From a virus: a stretch of 28,288 nt of DNA. The position numbers and the translations under genes were made by a program. Under the pieces are notes generated by a model that did no database searches, was not told where the DNA came from, and saw only the letters and a program-made list of their open reading frames with translations. The stretch spans positions 1 to 28,288 of IMG/VR virus record IMGVR_UViG_3300025769_000624; one strand, 5' to 3'. Of the stretch, positions 1,004 through 9,861 are shown piece by piece (position 1 is the stretch's first letter; the number at the start of each line of letters is the position of its first letter).

Positions 1004-1226
1004 GCAGTACAACAATCACTTCAAGTCATACGTGCAGACTAATAACACCGCTGATCTGCATATCTACTCAACTAAGTCAGCAACATGGTTGTATAACCGT
1101 CAGCGTGATGTAGTCGTATTGTTTGTTGATGACTCAGACGGCATGACAAACGACACTATTGTTTATGATAAGTCCGCTAAGAACTTTGAAAAGCATAAGA
1201 GTCGCATCTTGCGTCTTGCTGCATGA
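996..1226 (+). CDS. Hypothetical protein, 76 aa
   Basis: It starts at ATG 996 inside the end of the previous gene and ends at TGA 1224-1226, which overlaps the next ATG as ATGA. The sequence is mixed, with a probable strand-rich centre (RQRDVVVLFVDDSDG) and a basic C-terminus (FEKHKSRILRLAA). No family is recognised. Junctions on both sides support coupled translation within the early operon. Confidence 0.7.
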   Translation: MRKQYNNHFKSYVQTNNTADLHIYSTKSATWLYNRQRDVVVLFVDDSDGMTNDTIVYDKSAKNFEKHKSRILRLAA

Positions 1227-1339
1227 TTGAATGCACTAATAATCTTCTGTGGTGGCAATGGTGGATTCTCATTGCCATCACAATCAACACCGTAGTAAAC
1301 CTAATTGTATTCTTCAGAGGAAGGAAGTTTAAAAGATGA
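1223..1339 (+). CDS. Tiny single-pass membrane protein, 38 aa
   Basis: The start ATG 1223-1225 overlaps the previous stop (ATGA), and its own TGA 1337-1339 overlaps the next ATG (1336). Residues 8-31 form one hydrophobic segment rich in Trp, Ile and Val (LLWWQWWILIAITIN onward). It is followed by a basic tail (RGRKFKR), so by the positive-inside rule the C-terminus is likely cytoplasmic. It could act on the host membrane, for example as a superinfection, lysis or inhibitor peptide; the sequence does not say which. Confidence 0.6.
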   Translation: MIECTNNLLWWQWWILIAITINTVVNLIVFFRGRKFKR

Positions 1340-1413
1340 AACTAGATCTTGACAAAGCAATCGCAACTATTGGCTGGGTTCATATCATTGTAGCTATTTG
1401 GTACTATGGATGA
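1336..1413 (+). CDS. Tiny hydrophobic peptide, 25 aa
   Basis: It reads MKLDLDKAIATIGWVHIIV then AIWYYG. A short amphipathic start leads into a hydrophobic segment long enough to cross or lie on a membrane. Both ends form 4-nt overlaps (ATGA at 1336-1339, and TGA 1411-1413 overlapping an ATG at 1410). That chain of junctions is the main evidence that it is translated. The function is unknown. A gene this small could also occur by chance. Confidence 0.45.
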   Translation: MKLDLDKAIATIGWVHIIVAIWYYG

Positions 1414-2732: not shown

Positions 2733-2952
2733 CTATTGGTCAGAACAAACTGTTCGAGGTAAAGAGGGCAGTGATCATTATGTAAGGCTTGTAAAAATTA
2801 TGGAAGACCTTAAGTCTTATATTATTGAAGAAGAAAGGAAATCTCGTGAAGAATTACGTTTATCTAGCAGGTCCAATGGAGGACTGCACGAAACTGTCTA
2901 TGACTGGGTGGAGGAATTACAGCGAGAACAGACTAATACAACTAGGGATTAA
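2677..2952 (+). CDS. Hypothetical small protein, long overlaps on both sides, 91 aa
   Basis: AAAGAGG (2664-2670) lies 6 nt before an ATG at 2677. The first 55 residues look like a real helical protein (LAQTIINLTKAIDYW, VRLVKIMEDLKSYII). They cover the stretch 2733-2845 that would otherwise hold no gene. The last 35 residues are read in a second frame over the start of the deoxyribosyltransferase-like gene and look like shadow sequence (LRLSSRSNGG). The gene overlaps its neighbours by 56 and 107 nt, unusually long even here, so I hold it at moderate confidence. Confidence 0.45.
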   Translation: MTLRESLAQTIINLTKAIDYWSEQTVRGKEGSDHYVRLVKIMEDLKSYIIEEERKSREELRLSSRSNGGLHETVYDWVEELQREQTNTTRD

Positions 2953-3292
2953 GACACTCTCACCTACACGCAGGGTGTCTTTTCATGATGAATTAAAAAC
3001 TCTTGCTGAAAGAGATAATTCATCGCAATCAACTTGCAGACGCATTTTTAAAATGGATATGCAAGATATCGCAAACAGTACTGTTATAATAGCTGACGTT
3101 AGAAGAAGCAGTGGAAGAGGTACTGGTACTGCAATGGAACTTATGTTTGCTCACATTAAAAATAAAATTATTATACTGTGGGCAAATGAGGACGATATGA
3201 TACATCCATTCTATGAGAGTATCTACACTGAAAAATATTTTAACCTTGATGATTGCTTAGAAGCAGTCACATACTATTATGAAGGAGAATAA
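2846..3292 (+). CDS. Nucleoside 2-deoxyribosyltransferase-like protein, 148 aa
   Basis: AAAGGA (2834-2839) is 6 nt before a GTG at 2846, so I choose that start over the in-frame TTG at 2825. The N-terminus has the family's first strand and loop (YVYLAGPMEDC). The middle has STVIIADVRRSSGRGTGTAMELMFAH, where the D of IADV and the E of AMELMFAH sit where the family keeps its substrate-binding Asp and nucleophilic Glu. These enzymes move or cleave deoxyribose on nucleosides. In phages the fold is also used as a nucleotide-salvage or nucleotide-hydrolase domain. With dCMP deaminase and DUF3310 it suggests reshaping of host nucleotide pools. Confidence 0.75.
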   Translation: MKNYVYLAGPMEDCTKLSMTGWRNYSENRLIQLGIKTLSPTRRVSFHDELKTLAERDNSSQSTCRRIFKMDMQDIANSTVIIADVRRSSGRGTGTAMELMFAHIKNKIIILWANEDDMIHPFYESIYTEKYFNLDDCLEAVTYYYEGE

Positions 3293-6041: not shown

Positions 6042-6728
6042 ATGTTAGCAATAGTAGACGCTGATAGTTGCATCTATCAAGCTTCTTGGCAACAAAAATC
6101 TGTTAAAGAAGCACTTCGTAATTACAAAACACTATTAGATAAAAATTGGACTAGCCCTGTATGGCCTGATGAAACTGTAGTTTATTGTGGTGGTAAAGAT
6201 AACTTTAGGTACAAGCTTTGCCCTCAGTATAAAGCTAATCGTAAAGATCCACCTGAAGATGCTAAATTATTTAGGCCTCTTATGCAAGCGATTATTGATG
6301 AAGGCTTAGCTATACCCGCACATGGTATGGAAGCTGATGATATGGTTCGTATTAAAGCAATTGAGTGTGCTAAAGAAGATATTGAGCATGTTATTGTTCA
6401 TATCGATAAAGACCTTGATTGTATTGCAGGTGATCACTACAATCCAAAACGCTCAGAGTTTTATCGGATTGATGAAGATGCTGCAGATCTTAATTACTGG
6501 TTACAAATGCTTAAAGGTGATCCTACTGACAATTTGCCTGGATTGCCTCGCATTGGTGAAAAGAAAGCAGCAAAGATGCTTGAAGGAGTTCCTATGGAGC
6601 GCCGGAAACATCGTGTGTTAGCCGCATATCGGGCTAAGTATGGTCGTGTAGACTGGGAAACTAAGCTTCTTGAGACTGCAAACGGCATTCATATTTTAAG
6701 GAGTCATGATGACTACTTCAAGATTTAA
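6042..6728 (+). CDS. 5'-3' exonuclease, T7 gp6-like (FEN family), 228 aa
   Basis: AAGGAAACGTT precedes the ATG at 6042. Metal-binding acidic residues typical of FEN/gp6 nucleases are visible: IVDADS at the start, GMEADDM near residue 100, and IDKDLDCIAGDHYNP. A helix-hairpin-helix segment (LKGDPTDNLPGLPRIG onward) follows and would hold duplex DNA. In T7 gp6 removes RNA primers, helps degrade host DNA and promotes concatemer formation. The protein is shorter than T7 gp6 (about 300 aa). It follows the polymerase directly and its end overlaps the next gene by 20 nt. Confidence 0.93.
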   Translation: MLAIVDADSCIYQASWQQKSVKEALRNYKTLLDKNWTSPVWPDETVVYCGGKDNFRYKLCPQYKANRKDPPEDAKLFRPLMQAIIDEGLAIPAHGMEADDMVRIKAIECAKEDIEHVIVHIDKDLDCIAGDHYNPKRSEFYRIDEDAADLNYWLQMLKGDPTDNLPGLPRIGEKKAAKMLEGVPMERRKHRVLAAYRAKYGRVDWETKLLETANGIHILRSHDDYFKI

Positions 6729-7329
6729 TAATCATGAACGCTGGCGTAATGTAGAAATTATTCGCATTACTCAGTTTGATAAGCATGATTGGTGTGGAAT
6801 TATCACTAAAGAGCATGGTGAAATTCGTTGTAAACGCCGTAATAAAAAGCGGTACAAGCTTAAGAAAGGTTATAAAGGCCCGTTGACTGTTTTCTTTTAT
6901 AAAGGCAATACAGCAACAATTGCAGATGATCCTCGTGGTCATATTGAAGTTGAAAATCATTGGACTATTATTGAGCCTAAACTCTTTGATGAGTCACATT
7001 ATGGTTTTCTTTATGTCATTACAGACAAGCGTAATGATAAACGTTATGTCGGAATTAAGACATTACACACTAGCTGGAAGGGGTATACTAGCTCTTCCTC
7101 AGAACTTAACGATGAAATTGAAAAGGCAGGTAAAGAAAACTTTGAGTTTAATATTTTATTTTCTTGTGAAATGAAAGGAGATCTTAGTTATATGGAAGCA
7201 TTTATGATACTTAAAACACACGCATTGTGTACTGATAATTGGTATAATAAATGGGTTCATGAAATTAAATTTAAACCTGTTATGAAAAACATGGAGAGGC
7301 AAATTGAAATCGCCGAAGCGTACTCGTAA
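6709..7329 (+). CDS. GIY-YIG-like endonuclease, 206 aa
   Basis: Two ATGs in a row (6706, 6709) follow AAGGAG (6698-6703); the second has better spacing. Around residues 100-165 are GFLYVITDKRNDKRYVGIK (the GIY...YIG strand pair) and SYMEAFMILKTHAL, whose Glu is the expected metal ligand. The catalytic Arg usually found after the YIG strand is not obvious, which is unusual. Residues 1-95 are basic and may bind DNA. The gene sits between the exonuclease and primase-helicase. It could be a resolvase-like nuclease doing the job of T7 gp3, or a homing-type relative with no separate intron visible. Confidence 0.7.
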   Translation: MTTSRFNNHERWRNVEIIRITQFDKHDWCGIITKEHGEIRCKRRNKKRYKLKKGYKGPLTVFFYKGNTATIADDPRGHIEVENHWTIIEPKLFDESHYGFLYVITDKRNDKRYVGIKTLHTSWKGYTSSSSELNDEIEKAGKENFEFNILFSCEMKGDLSYMEAFMILKTHALCTDNWYNKWVHEIKFKPVMKNMERQIEIAEAYS

Positions 7330-7531
7330 TCCTTATTATAGTGATATTCGAAAGCACAGCGTAATCCCTTCAAAACAAAATGAAGTTCATGAAGATGAAT
7401 GGGATGAAGATGTGTTAGAGTTATTTAATAATAAGCAACAAAAAGCACAACGAGTTAACAATTCACAAAAAGCACGACAGAAACGAAAGGAAGCTCGTCA
7501 TGCCAAAGAAAACAGAATATACGGAGAGTAA
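7304..7531 (+). CDS. Highly charged hypothetical protein, 75 aa
   Basis: It starts at TTG 7304 after GGAGAGG (7293-7299) and overlaps both the nuclease gene (26 nt) and the primase-helicase start (32 nt). An acidic middle (EVHEDEWDEDVLELF) leads to a strongly basic helix-forming tail (QKARQKRKEARHAKENR). This suggests a nucleic-acid or protein-binding accessory peptide, with little stable fold predicted by eye. The rare start codon lowers confidence a little, but no other gene fills 7330-7499. Confidence 0.6.
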   Translation: MKSPKRTRNPYYSDIRKHSVIPSKQNEVHEDEWDEDVLELFNNKQQKAQRVNNSQKARQKRKEARHAKENRIYGE

Positions 7532-9164
7532 AGAAATTGGCAAAACTAAATGCCCTGCTTGTCCGTCTAGTGATGGCTTTGCCGTATATGATGACGGACA
7601 TGGCTATTGTTTTGTGTGTAATCATTATGAGCGTAATGTAGAAGAAGGAAAGGAAGAGGATATGCCTCTAGATACTACAAAAACTGCATGGGATATTGAT
7701 GTATTCTTTGCAAATACTGGTGATGCTCGCGGTTGTCGTGAGCGTGGTATAACAAAAGATGTAGCAGAACACTATGGTGTTCGGGTATCGTATGATAGTG
7801 ATCGTAATATTACTGCATATCATTACCCTTATACTAAAGATAATGTAATTACATCTTATAAAACACGGACTTTACCTAAACAGTTTAGTACCGTAGGAGA
7901 GTTTAAAGATGTCGAGCCATATGGTATTCAAAGCTTTAATGCTGGAGGGAAAAGACTCGTTGTCACTGAAGGCGAGTTTGACGCAATGGCGGTGGCGCAA
8001 GCGTCAATGGACAAATATAAAAAGATTTACCCGGTTATATCTGTTGCGTCTTCAAGCAACCTTAAAAGCCTTCTTAAATCACGCACTTGGATTCGCTCGT
8101 TTGAAGAAGTAGTATTATTCTTTGATCAGGACGATGCTGGCAAGAAAGCAGTAAAAGAAGCAGCTAATATTATTGGCATTGATAAAATCAAAGTTGTTAA
8201 TGTAGCTGAAAATGATCCTTGCGAAGTATACACTGCTAAAGGTATGAAAGGTATCTATGAAGCTATCTGGAATGCACAGCCTTATAGTCCTGCAGGTATT
8301 ATTGTAGGGCATGAGCCAGTGTGGGAGCAGTATCTTGCAAGGCGTTCTACTGAGTCTGTAGCATATCCTGATTGTCTTCGTGGTATTAATGAAAAGACTA
8401 AAGGTATGCGTTTCGGTGAGATCACTTTGTTTACTTCAGGTACAGGCAGTGGTAAATCTACTGTTATTAAAGAAATTGTACTTGATGTTCTTAGCAAAAC
8501 AGAAGATCGTGTAGGTATGATTTCACTTGAAGAATCGGTTGGTGATACTGCTGAAAAGTTTATTCAGATGCAGTTGAAAACTAATCTACAAGAAAATGAA
8601 GTACCATTAGAGCAGCAGGAGGCAGCTAGTCGTGAAGTATTTGGTTCAGAAAAGCTTGTGTTATTGGATCATCAAGGCTCAGTTGGTGATGAGTCTCTTA
8701 TTGACAAGATTGAGTATATGGCTCTCATGGGATGTCGATATCTTATTCTTGACCACATTACAATCGCAGTTTCTGAGGGCGCTGAAGGTTACTCTGGTAA
8801 TGAAGCCATTGATAAAGTTATGTCTGATCTTCTTAAGCTTACTAAGAAGCACAACATCTGGTTGGGTGTTATCAGCCATCTGCGGAAAGTCCAAGGAGGC
8901 GGCACCACTTTTGAACAAGGCAAGCTGCCTGCAATGGACGATATCAAAGGTTCAGGTAGTATTAAACAAATATCTTTTGACATTATCGGTTTTGCCCGTG
9001 ACATGTCAAATGAAAACGAATCAATCCGTAACACTATTAAGTTTTCGGTGCTTAAAAGCCGATTTACAGGTAGGACAGGGCCAGCTGGAAACGCTAAGTA
9101 TGACCACAATACGACCCGACTTTCTTACCACAATGAAAATGAAGTTGACTTCGAGGTAATGTAA
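7500..9164 (+). CDS. Primase-helicase, T7 gp4-like, 554 aa
   Basis: This is a bifunctional fork enzyme that unwinds DNA and makes RNA primers. An N-terminal zinc finger uses C18-x2-C21 and C37-x2-C40. A TOPRIM primase domain follows (VTEGEFDAM with E157; FFDQDDAG with D209 and D211). The helicase domain has Walker A TSGTGSGKST (K319), a catalytic Glu segment ISLEES, Walker B YLILDH (D418), and later WLGVISHLRKV. The C-terminus is acidic (NENEVDFEVM), as in T7 gp4, where the tail meets the polymerase. AAAGGA precedes ATG 7500. Residue Met55 has its own ribosome-binding site (separate entry). Confidence 0.97.
   Translation: MPKKTEYTESKEIGKTKCPACPSSDGFAVYDDGHGYCFVCNHYERNVEEGKEEDMPLDTTKTAWDIDVFFANTGDARGCRERGITKDVAEHYGVRVSYDSDRNITAYHYPYTKDNVITSYKTRTLPKQFSTVGEFKDVEPYGIQSFNAGGKRLVVTEGEFDAMAVAQASMDKYKKIYPVISVASSSNLKSLLKSRTWIRSFEEVVLFFDQDDAGKKAVKEAANIIGIDKIKVVNVAENDPCEVYTAKGMKGIYEAIWNAQPYSPAGIIVGHEPVWEQYLARRSTESVAYPDCLRGINEKTKGMRFGEITLFTSGTGSGKSTVIKEIVLDVLSKTEDRVGMISLEESVGDTAEKFIQMQLKTNLQENEVPLEQQEAASREVFGSEKLVLLDHQGSVGDESLIDKIEYMALMGCRYLILDHITIAVSEGAEGYSGNEAIDKVMSDLLKLTKKHNIWLGVISHLRKVQGGGTTFEQGKLPAMDDIKGSGSIKQISFDIIGFARDMSNENESIRNTIKFSVLKSRFTGRTGPAGNAKYDHNTTRLSYHNENEVDFEVM
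7650..7664 (+). promoter_or_regulatory. Candidate internal ribosome-binding site and start for a helicase-only form
   Basis: AAGGA (7650-7654) stands 7 nt before the in-frame ATG at 7662 (Met55), just after the zinc finger. Starting here would give a 500-aa protein without the zinc finger but with TOPRIM and helicase domains. T7 gp4B is made the same way from an internal start at Met64 of gp4A. Purine-rich codons for Glu and Lys could produce this match by chance. Confidence 0.5.
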
Positions 9165-9349: not shown

Positions 9350-9455
9350 AATCCAAAACACTGACTCAAAAGGTGGCGGTAAAATTAGACCTATGTCTGA
9401 AGCAATTGCTGCCGTGGAGAAATCAAATGACAGCGAAGCAGGTAAAGTACGATAA
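9312..9455 (+). CDS. Small basic protein, 47 aa
   Basis: GAGGA (9299-9303) is 8 nt before ATG 9312. The product starts MNYKKSIRRKAIKIQN, strongly basic, then has a Gly-rich turn (DSKGGGKIRP) and an Ala/Glu helix. It overlaps the coiled-coil gene by 38 nt and the deaminase by 29 nt and fills the gap between them. It may bind nucleic acid. No family is recognised. Confidence 0.5.
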   Translation: MNYKKSIRRKAIKIQNTDSKGGGKIRPMSEAIAAVEKSNDSEAGKVR

Positions 9456-9861
9456 CTTTTATATGGATGTAGCAAATCGTGTAGCACAAATGTCTTATGA
9501 TTGTGATACACAGGTCGGCGCAATTATTGTAAAAGACGGTAATATTATTTCAATGGGCTGGAATGGAACACCAGCTGGTTTCCCTAATGAATGTAAGAAC
9601 CCTCACACTGGCGCAACATTGCCTACAGTTATTCATGCAGAAGCTAATGCTATCTGTAAGCTAGCTAAATCAGGCATGTCAGGTGAGGGTGCAAGCATTT
9701 ATGTTACTCTTTCACCTTGCATAGAATGTACAAAATTAATCTTGCAATCTGGAATAAAAGAAGTTATAATAGCTAAAGGCGATGATAAATACATTGATAG
9801 CTTTAAAATCCTAAAAGAGAAAGGAATGATTAGACTATGCGAGTCGAATTCAAAAGCATAG
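9427..9861 (+). CDS. dCMP (cytidylate) deaminase, 144 aa
   Basis: The zinc-dependent deaminase signature is complete: HAEAN (H70, catalytic E72) and LSPCIECTKLI (C98, C101). SMGWNGTPAGFPNECKNP matches the phage dCMP deaminase pattern. The enzyme turns dCMP into dUMP, the precursor of dTTP, in the cytoplasm. GGAGA (9416-9420) supports ATG 9427; an in-frame start at 9373 lies over other genes. The length is usual for the family. It belongs with the other nucleotide-metabolism genes in this arm. Confidence 0.94.
   Translation: MTAKQVKYDNFYMDVANRVAQMSYDCDTQVGAIIVKDGNIISMGWNGTPAGFPNECKNPHTGATLPTVIHAEANAICKLAKSGMSGEGASIYVTLSPCIECTKLILQSGIKEVIIAKGDDKYIDSFKILKEKGMIRLCESNSKA

Follow-up and report, generated by a model that had tools for sequence, protein, structure and literature searches.

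The window, the whole stretch of DNA analysed here, is a virus record of 28,288 bases in which profile searches identified a family-A DNA polymerase, a single-subunit RNA polymerase and a DUF3310 protein. It also encodes a gp2.5-like, SSB-like protein (phrog_112). The nearest deposited phage, as judged by the DUF3310 protein (43%) and the RNA polymerase (34%), is Roseobacter phage CRP-7, which is distant. At the locus under study, four open reading frames are chained on the plus strand: an upstream ORF of 76 amino acids (996–1226), which had no family match in profile searches and three relatives in the viral contig collection (viral_contigs); peptide 1, of 38 amino acids (1223–1339); peptide 2, a hydrophobic candidate coding ORF of 25 amino acids (1336–1413); and the DUF3310 gene (1410–1739; PF11753, E 2.4e-8). 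A tRNA-Leu (TAA) is located at 657–741, and a tRNA-Leu with the same anticodon is also found upstream in the related contigs L002–L004.

The preliminary description had reported three exact ATGA junctions in this chain and judged them improbable by chance. All three overlaps were confirmed (1223–1226, 1336–1339 and 1410–1413). With a chain defined as a long ORF, two ORFs of 20–60 amino acids and another long ORF, all joined by ATGA, the plus strand of the window contained one, compared to none in 300 dinucleotide-preserving shuffles, with thresholds picked only after the case had been seen. Translation of the DUF3310 gene may not begin at the third junction: an alternative in-frame ATG at 1446 is present behind a Shine-Dalgarno-like AAAGGA (1435–1440); the DUF3310 genes of relatives L005–L007 begin near the position equivalent to this second start. 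The further claim that the two peptides constitute a linked pair did not hold up, as the chain was absent in the relatives read and peptide 2 had no detected relative. Across relatives, recurrence is limited to peptide 1 and to its coupling with the gene in front of it, whichever that is.

Conservation of peptide 2, also raised as a check in the preliminary description, was sought with a relaxed pattern, which gave no match in viral_contigs (the window's own record was possibly left out of this search). In L006 and L182, and only in these two contigs of the collection, the slot before DUF3310 is occupied by a different hydrophobic peptide of 25 amino acids, unlike peptide 2 by eye; the two 25-mers differ from each other with a pS of 0.43 and a pN of 0.14. 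L181 and L183 are otherwise almost the same as L182, but their slot before DUF3310 is cleanly empty. Further, a 23-codon frame on the plus strand (MDETRTIHERKDYHVRRMESSKP, 1406–1477) abuts peptide 2 and is similar, by eye, to the C-terminal end of the L003 ORF at 1571–1843, the gene preceding DUF3310 in that contig. This resemblance suggests a deletion in the window, and the frame is possibly a remnant of the deleted gene. Peptide 2 itself is probably an accessory peptide or an incidental ORF, a by-product.

Peptide 1, as judged from its sequence, is a member of a strongly conserved, nameless family of one-helix membrane peptides from uncultivated phages, and belongs to the TINT branch of this WW..TINT/TLNT micropeptide family. 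Among the DUF3310 relatives (31 loci, 11 of them read), homologues were present in L003 (89% identical) and in L007/L008 (50%), where they adjoin different genes, and absent from L002 and L004. A degenerate DNA pattern for WW-x5-TINT-x-h-N retrieved at least 119 stretches from viral_contigs; all 119 listed encode short peptides of one family, with L144 cut by the contig end and L120 divergent. A further pattern, designed for TLNT, retrieved 77 stretches, all of them family members (74 by a script filter and three slightly beyond its length limit), so that 196 of 196 listed viral stretches encode the family. The locus set comprises at least 201 loci, namely the pattern matches, phage C72C1 and four loci that are the window or were found via neighbours. 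In 84,980 bacterial and archaeal genomes (genome_contigs), the first pattern matched 11 times and never in a family member: nine matches fell in short or broken frames, and those in L154 and L159 were chance matches, alike only in the pattern. Chance matches to the pattern are thus rare. One family copy per record was found in 32 of 32 records searched, both in those where it adjoins lysis genes and in those where it does not.

Among 50,697 phage records, the family was found only in C72C1. Here, tblastn queries consisting of five actual family sequences and a consensus returned this phage three times and otherwise nothing credible, although the BLAST low-complexity filter possibly conceals distant relatives. 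The C72C1 member, WJE88137.1 (OQ984150, 28664–28762), is annotated as a hypothetical protein; its local profile E-value of 1.2e-19 is not independent, since the sequence is part of the profile, whereas the tblastn E-value of 8e-5 is. It is of the same family as peptide 1 of the window, within the LQYW/TLNT branch and in a lysis cassette, its function not annotated. Comparison of peptide 1 with Pfam, PHROGs, NCBIfam, PADLOC and PDB sequences gave no usable match, the only PHROG hit being phrog_22598 (E 0.028–0.29), and the family has no Pfam, PHROG or NCBIfam entry. Two candidate identities were discarded: DUF4381, a single match in one of 18 members (E 0.0012) that was put down to similarity in the WW motif, and gp57 of HMO-2011 (37 amino acids), which would fit in length and location but belongs to the two-TM gene. 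Searches of openly licensed articles in PMC found no description of the family. Small phage genes in IMG/VR were reportedly surveyed by Fremin et al. in 2022, and that survey may list it without a function. The family is represented by a gene of about 120 bp, easily missed by annotation, with near-invariant residues, in at least about 200 viral contigs.

The family core reads WW-x5-T[IL]NT-x2-N, with a W two residues before, and an F 17 and an R 21 residues after, the first core W; peptide 1 of the window carries the core and all three additional columns. These columns lie outside the search pattern and are occupied as expected in 90 of 93 (W), 91 of 92 (F) and 90 of 91 (R) distinct listed TINT peptides. 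Between the window and L003, a pair found without pattern search, 11 synonymous and three nonsynonymous changes were counted over 25 codons (pS 0.688, pN 0.051), while the means over 6,144 listed family pairs were 0.78 and 0.20, with residues partly fixed by the search patterns. As these comparisons indicate, peptide 1 is under strong purifying selection. The codon-level conservation proposed earlier as a check was therefore observed for peptide 1, whose frame is kept. That both peptides are chance ORFs without a product is scarcely credible, since peptide 1 is conserved and selected, even if the lack of relatives of peptide 2 by the pattern used would agree with it.

In line with its initial portrayal as Trp-rich and hydrophobic with a basic tail, family comparison indicates that peptide 1 is a selected and probably membrane-spanning peptide. 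All 91 distinct listed TINT peptides with a C-flank (of 93) combine a neutral or acidic N-flank with a basic C-flank, with mean charges of −1.5 and +5.5, respectively, among the listed TINT peptides; the C-flank of peptide 1 in the window is basic and comprises seven residues. By the positive-inside rule, this asymmetry places the N-terminus outside, and a single N-out/C-in helix is predicted. Family peptides are mostly 32–62 amino acids long. The AlphaFold model of peptide 1 contains one helix (residues 5–34, mean pLDDT 79) and says little beyond that. On an ideal helix, by our own reckoning, the four conserved polar residues (Thr, Asn, Thr and Asn) share one side, several of these columns being fixed by the search pattern. 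In membrane helices, such polar faces are known to drive association between helices.

Coupling to the preceding gene was then counted across the family. An overlap of 1–4 nt with an upstream ORF of at least 40 codons was present in 101 of 156 distinct listed loci (70 by 1 nt and 31 by 4 nt), with starts assigned by a heuristic and with the upstream stop checked, unlike in a rejected measure that took a start codon followed by A. The upstream genes are unrelated to each other (RNR, holin, portal, lysozyme and others); the family gene itself thus commonly attaches to its neighbour, and the ATGA at 1223–1226 is one instance.

The LQYW/TLNT branch comprises 60 loci with 24 distinct peptides. In all 60, a lysis gene lies on the same strand no more than 1.7 kb away, and in 55 such a gene lies within 250 bp. 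As lysis genes we counted lysozymes, PF11351-type holins, phrog_2524 holin-like genes and phrog_10198 two-TM genes. The latter two are listed as "unknown function" in PHROGs and are termed holin-like because of their membrane segments and the genes around them and, for phrog_2524, because it overlaps weakly with matches to PF11351. A strict count, limited to lysozyme or GTA-type holin (PF11351 over the cut-off), gave 40 of 60 loci. The two-TM gene was present within 1.7 kb in 53 of 60 LQYW loci vs. one of 123 listed TINT loci. Arrangements vary, and include lysozyme-2TM-holin-peptide, which is the gene order in phage C72C1, lysozyme-peptide-holin and portal-peptide-holin-like. Two further families of conserved TM/coiled-coil genes, phrog_32327 and phrog_20984, recur in lysis cassettes of the family (L226:11295–11732, L213:2361–2753 and relatives).

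In the WW-TLNT group, 11 of 18 loci are near lysis-type genes and eight of 18 near nucleotide genes. In the TINT branch, to which the window belongs, 110 of 123 listed loci are near nucleotide or replication genes (RNR, ThyX, DUF6378, DUF3310, phrog_13596, phrog_1811 or 2OG-oxygenase), while at least two (L035 and L105, both by lysozyme) are near lysis genes, a lower bound, as the systematic search was for the lysis gene families named above. In a tree of 88 listed cores over 28 columns, the lysis label clustered (seven changes vs. a shuffled mean of 22.1, with none of 500 as low); as only four branches are starred, no direction of movement is claimed. An RNR gene within 1.7 kb in 48 of 123 listed TINT loci, often directly upstream, might point to a membrane partner of ribonucleotide reductase or of nucleotide metabolism. 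This role is very improbable, given that the upstream genes vary widely and that none of the 60 LQYW loci is near RNR.

The branch-wide lysis neighbourhood, the presence of one copy per record, the predicted membrane topology and two analogues from the literature lead us to favour, tentatively, the reading of peptide 1 as a lysis-timing factor, either an antiholin or a co-holin. In the host inner membrane, its single membrane helix, with the N-terminus predicted outside and the basic C-terminus inside, would use the conserved Thr/Asn face to assemble with holin-type proteins, and would thereby tune the moment at which the holins fire. In the TINT branch, the position beside replication and nucleotide genes suggests that the peptide would be made early or in mid-infection, before the late holin. 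A lysis regulator had been among the candidates named in the preliminary description; the neighbourhood of the wider family favours it, but the window's own branch, near lysis genes in at least two of 123 listed loci, does not. A broader picture, which we consider possible but doubtful, is that of a highly conserved, hitherto undescribed class of micropeptides that time lysis and are made early or in mid-infection. Their gene would shuttle between lysis cassettes and operons for nucleotide metabolism, in most cases with translational attachment to the gene before it. If true, this would allow phages to remove control of the holin from the late operon.

The two analogues were likened to peptide 1 by their described features. 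ORF52 of Salmonella phage BSPM4 (PMC11657625) is a one-TM protein of 64 amino acids that is encoded outside the lysis cassette and expressed before the holin, to which it binds, delaying lysis. Small size, a single TM, an off-cassette gene and expression ahead of the holin would be shared with peptide 1, whose early timing is deduced from gene position; ORF52 differs in its length, its N-terminal TM and longer tail, and in that holin binding was shown there and is conjectured here. LysF1b of mycobacteriophages Girr and NBJ (PMC13056207) has one TM, predicted to be N-out/C-in; its gene overlaps a preceding two-TM lysis gene by ATGA, and its deletion causes a lysis defect. It resembles peptide 1 in the single TM, the predicted topology, the basic residues after the TM and the 4-nt ATGA overlap, and differs in its 124 amino acids, long charged cytoplasmic domain and mycobacterial hosts, the family having mostly a short basic tail.

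Other lysis proteins were compared and rejected. The releasin gp25 of phage Mu (DUF2730; PMC9239132) has 99 amino acids with an anionic cytoplasmic domain of 73 and acts on SAR endolysins; it has a type I, N-out/C-in single TM, as is predicted for the peptide-1 family, and likewise a gene near that of the endolysin. Pfam scans of the family gave no DUF2730 match, the C-flank is basic rather than a long anionic domain, and the neighbouring lysozymes show no SAR-like anchor by hydropathy. For a spanin (N-in/C-out, with a long periplasmic domain), the charge asymmetry predicts the opposite topology, with few residues outside.

Lysozyme (PF00959) was detected in 11 of 50 TINT records, L035 and L105 included, and in several larger TINT records lysozyme and holins are located in a separate region, mostly on the opposite strand. 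A PF11351 holin is present elsewhere in the record in four larger TINT records, among them G047, which holds close relatives of peptide 1 of the window and of its upstream gene. Across 19 TINT records, all possibly fragments, PF11351 was found in four, phrog_2524 strongly in five and phrog_10198 in seven; all three were absent in six, the window included. In 50 kb scanned of each of the isolates HMO-2011, CRP-901, CRP-13 and CRP-7, no member of the peptide-1 family was found, while the first three carry holin-like and lysozyme/endolysin genes. Such holin-bearing lysis regions without the peptide argue that the family is not an essential holin, and a role as the required hole-former of the cassette was discarded.

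The lysis-cassette location and a single TM helix with a polar face would also suit a minimal holin or pinholin, with peptide 1 itself forming the holes. We find this improbable: most cassettes already contain other holin or holin-like genes, related lysis regions do without the peptide, and a hole-former expressed early would be lethal. A pinholin would not release the lysozymes near family members, which have no TM or membrane anchor by hydropathy. A short single-TM peptide linked to lysis could alternatively act like an amurin, inhibiting a membrane enzyme of host cell-wall synthesis and weakening the wall before the endolysin acts. Sgl-M has a size of 37 amino acids. It targets MurJ, which it inhibits (PMC10229422), and so provides a precedent. 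An amurin would nevertheless be redundant in phages that encode lysozyme and holins, and this function too is distinctly unlikely.

Counting against a role in lysis timing, 121 of 123 listed TINT loci have no detected lysis neighbourhood and the holin types of the TINT branch vary, with no single partner. A strongly conserved peptide alongside such changing holins would be explained no less well by a host target or by self-assembly. The peptide might then serve host takeover by binding a conserved inner-membrane protein, through exclusion of later phages, modulation of respiration or transport, or depolarisation, its adjacency to lysis genes in one branch being incidental. The conserved face kept across phages with different holin types agrees with this, as do the replication-block location in 110 of 123 listed TINT loci and a one-TM gene like cytochrome-oxidase subunit IV, just below the Pfam cut-off, within 1.7 kb in seven listed TINT loci. 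However, the position among lysis genes in 60 of 60 LQYW loci, in several arrangements, is hard to obtain incidentally, and a PADLOC search of the family gave no match; we regard host takeover as rather unlikely. Exclusion and depolarisation, also candidates in the preliminary description, drew no support from the analyses.

Should the lysis-timing reading be correct, the family would offer a handle on lysis timing, and hence burst size, in phages with relatives that infect SAR11, SAR116 and roseobacters. Should a host membrane protein be the target, the invariant face would mark a conserved weak spot of SAR11, SAR116 and roseobacter hosts. Under either reading, the definition of the family allows specific tests.

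Finally, several other genes were recorded. COX4_pro_2-like genes near the micropeptide scored 18.8–21.6 bits (cut-off 22) at L045:3937–4131, L053:5106–5300, L082:5966–6160, L075:1136–1327 and L102:6377–6568; these phage genes, similar in sequence to subunit IV of bacterial aa3 cytochrome c oxidase, are possibly respiratory auxiliary genes. In the window, nucleoside deoxyribosyltransferase-like and dCMP deaminase genes are located at 2825–3292 and 9373–9861. A 207-aa ORF (6706–7329) lies between ORFs of 228 (6042–6728) and 554 amino acids (7500–9164), and its middle part, judged by eye, looks similar to a GIY-YIG-type nuclease.
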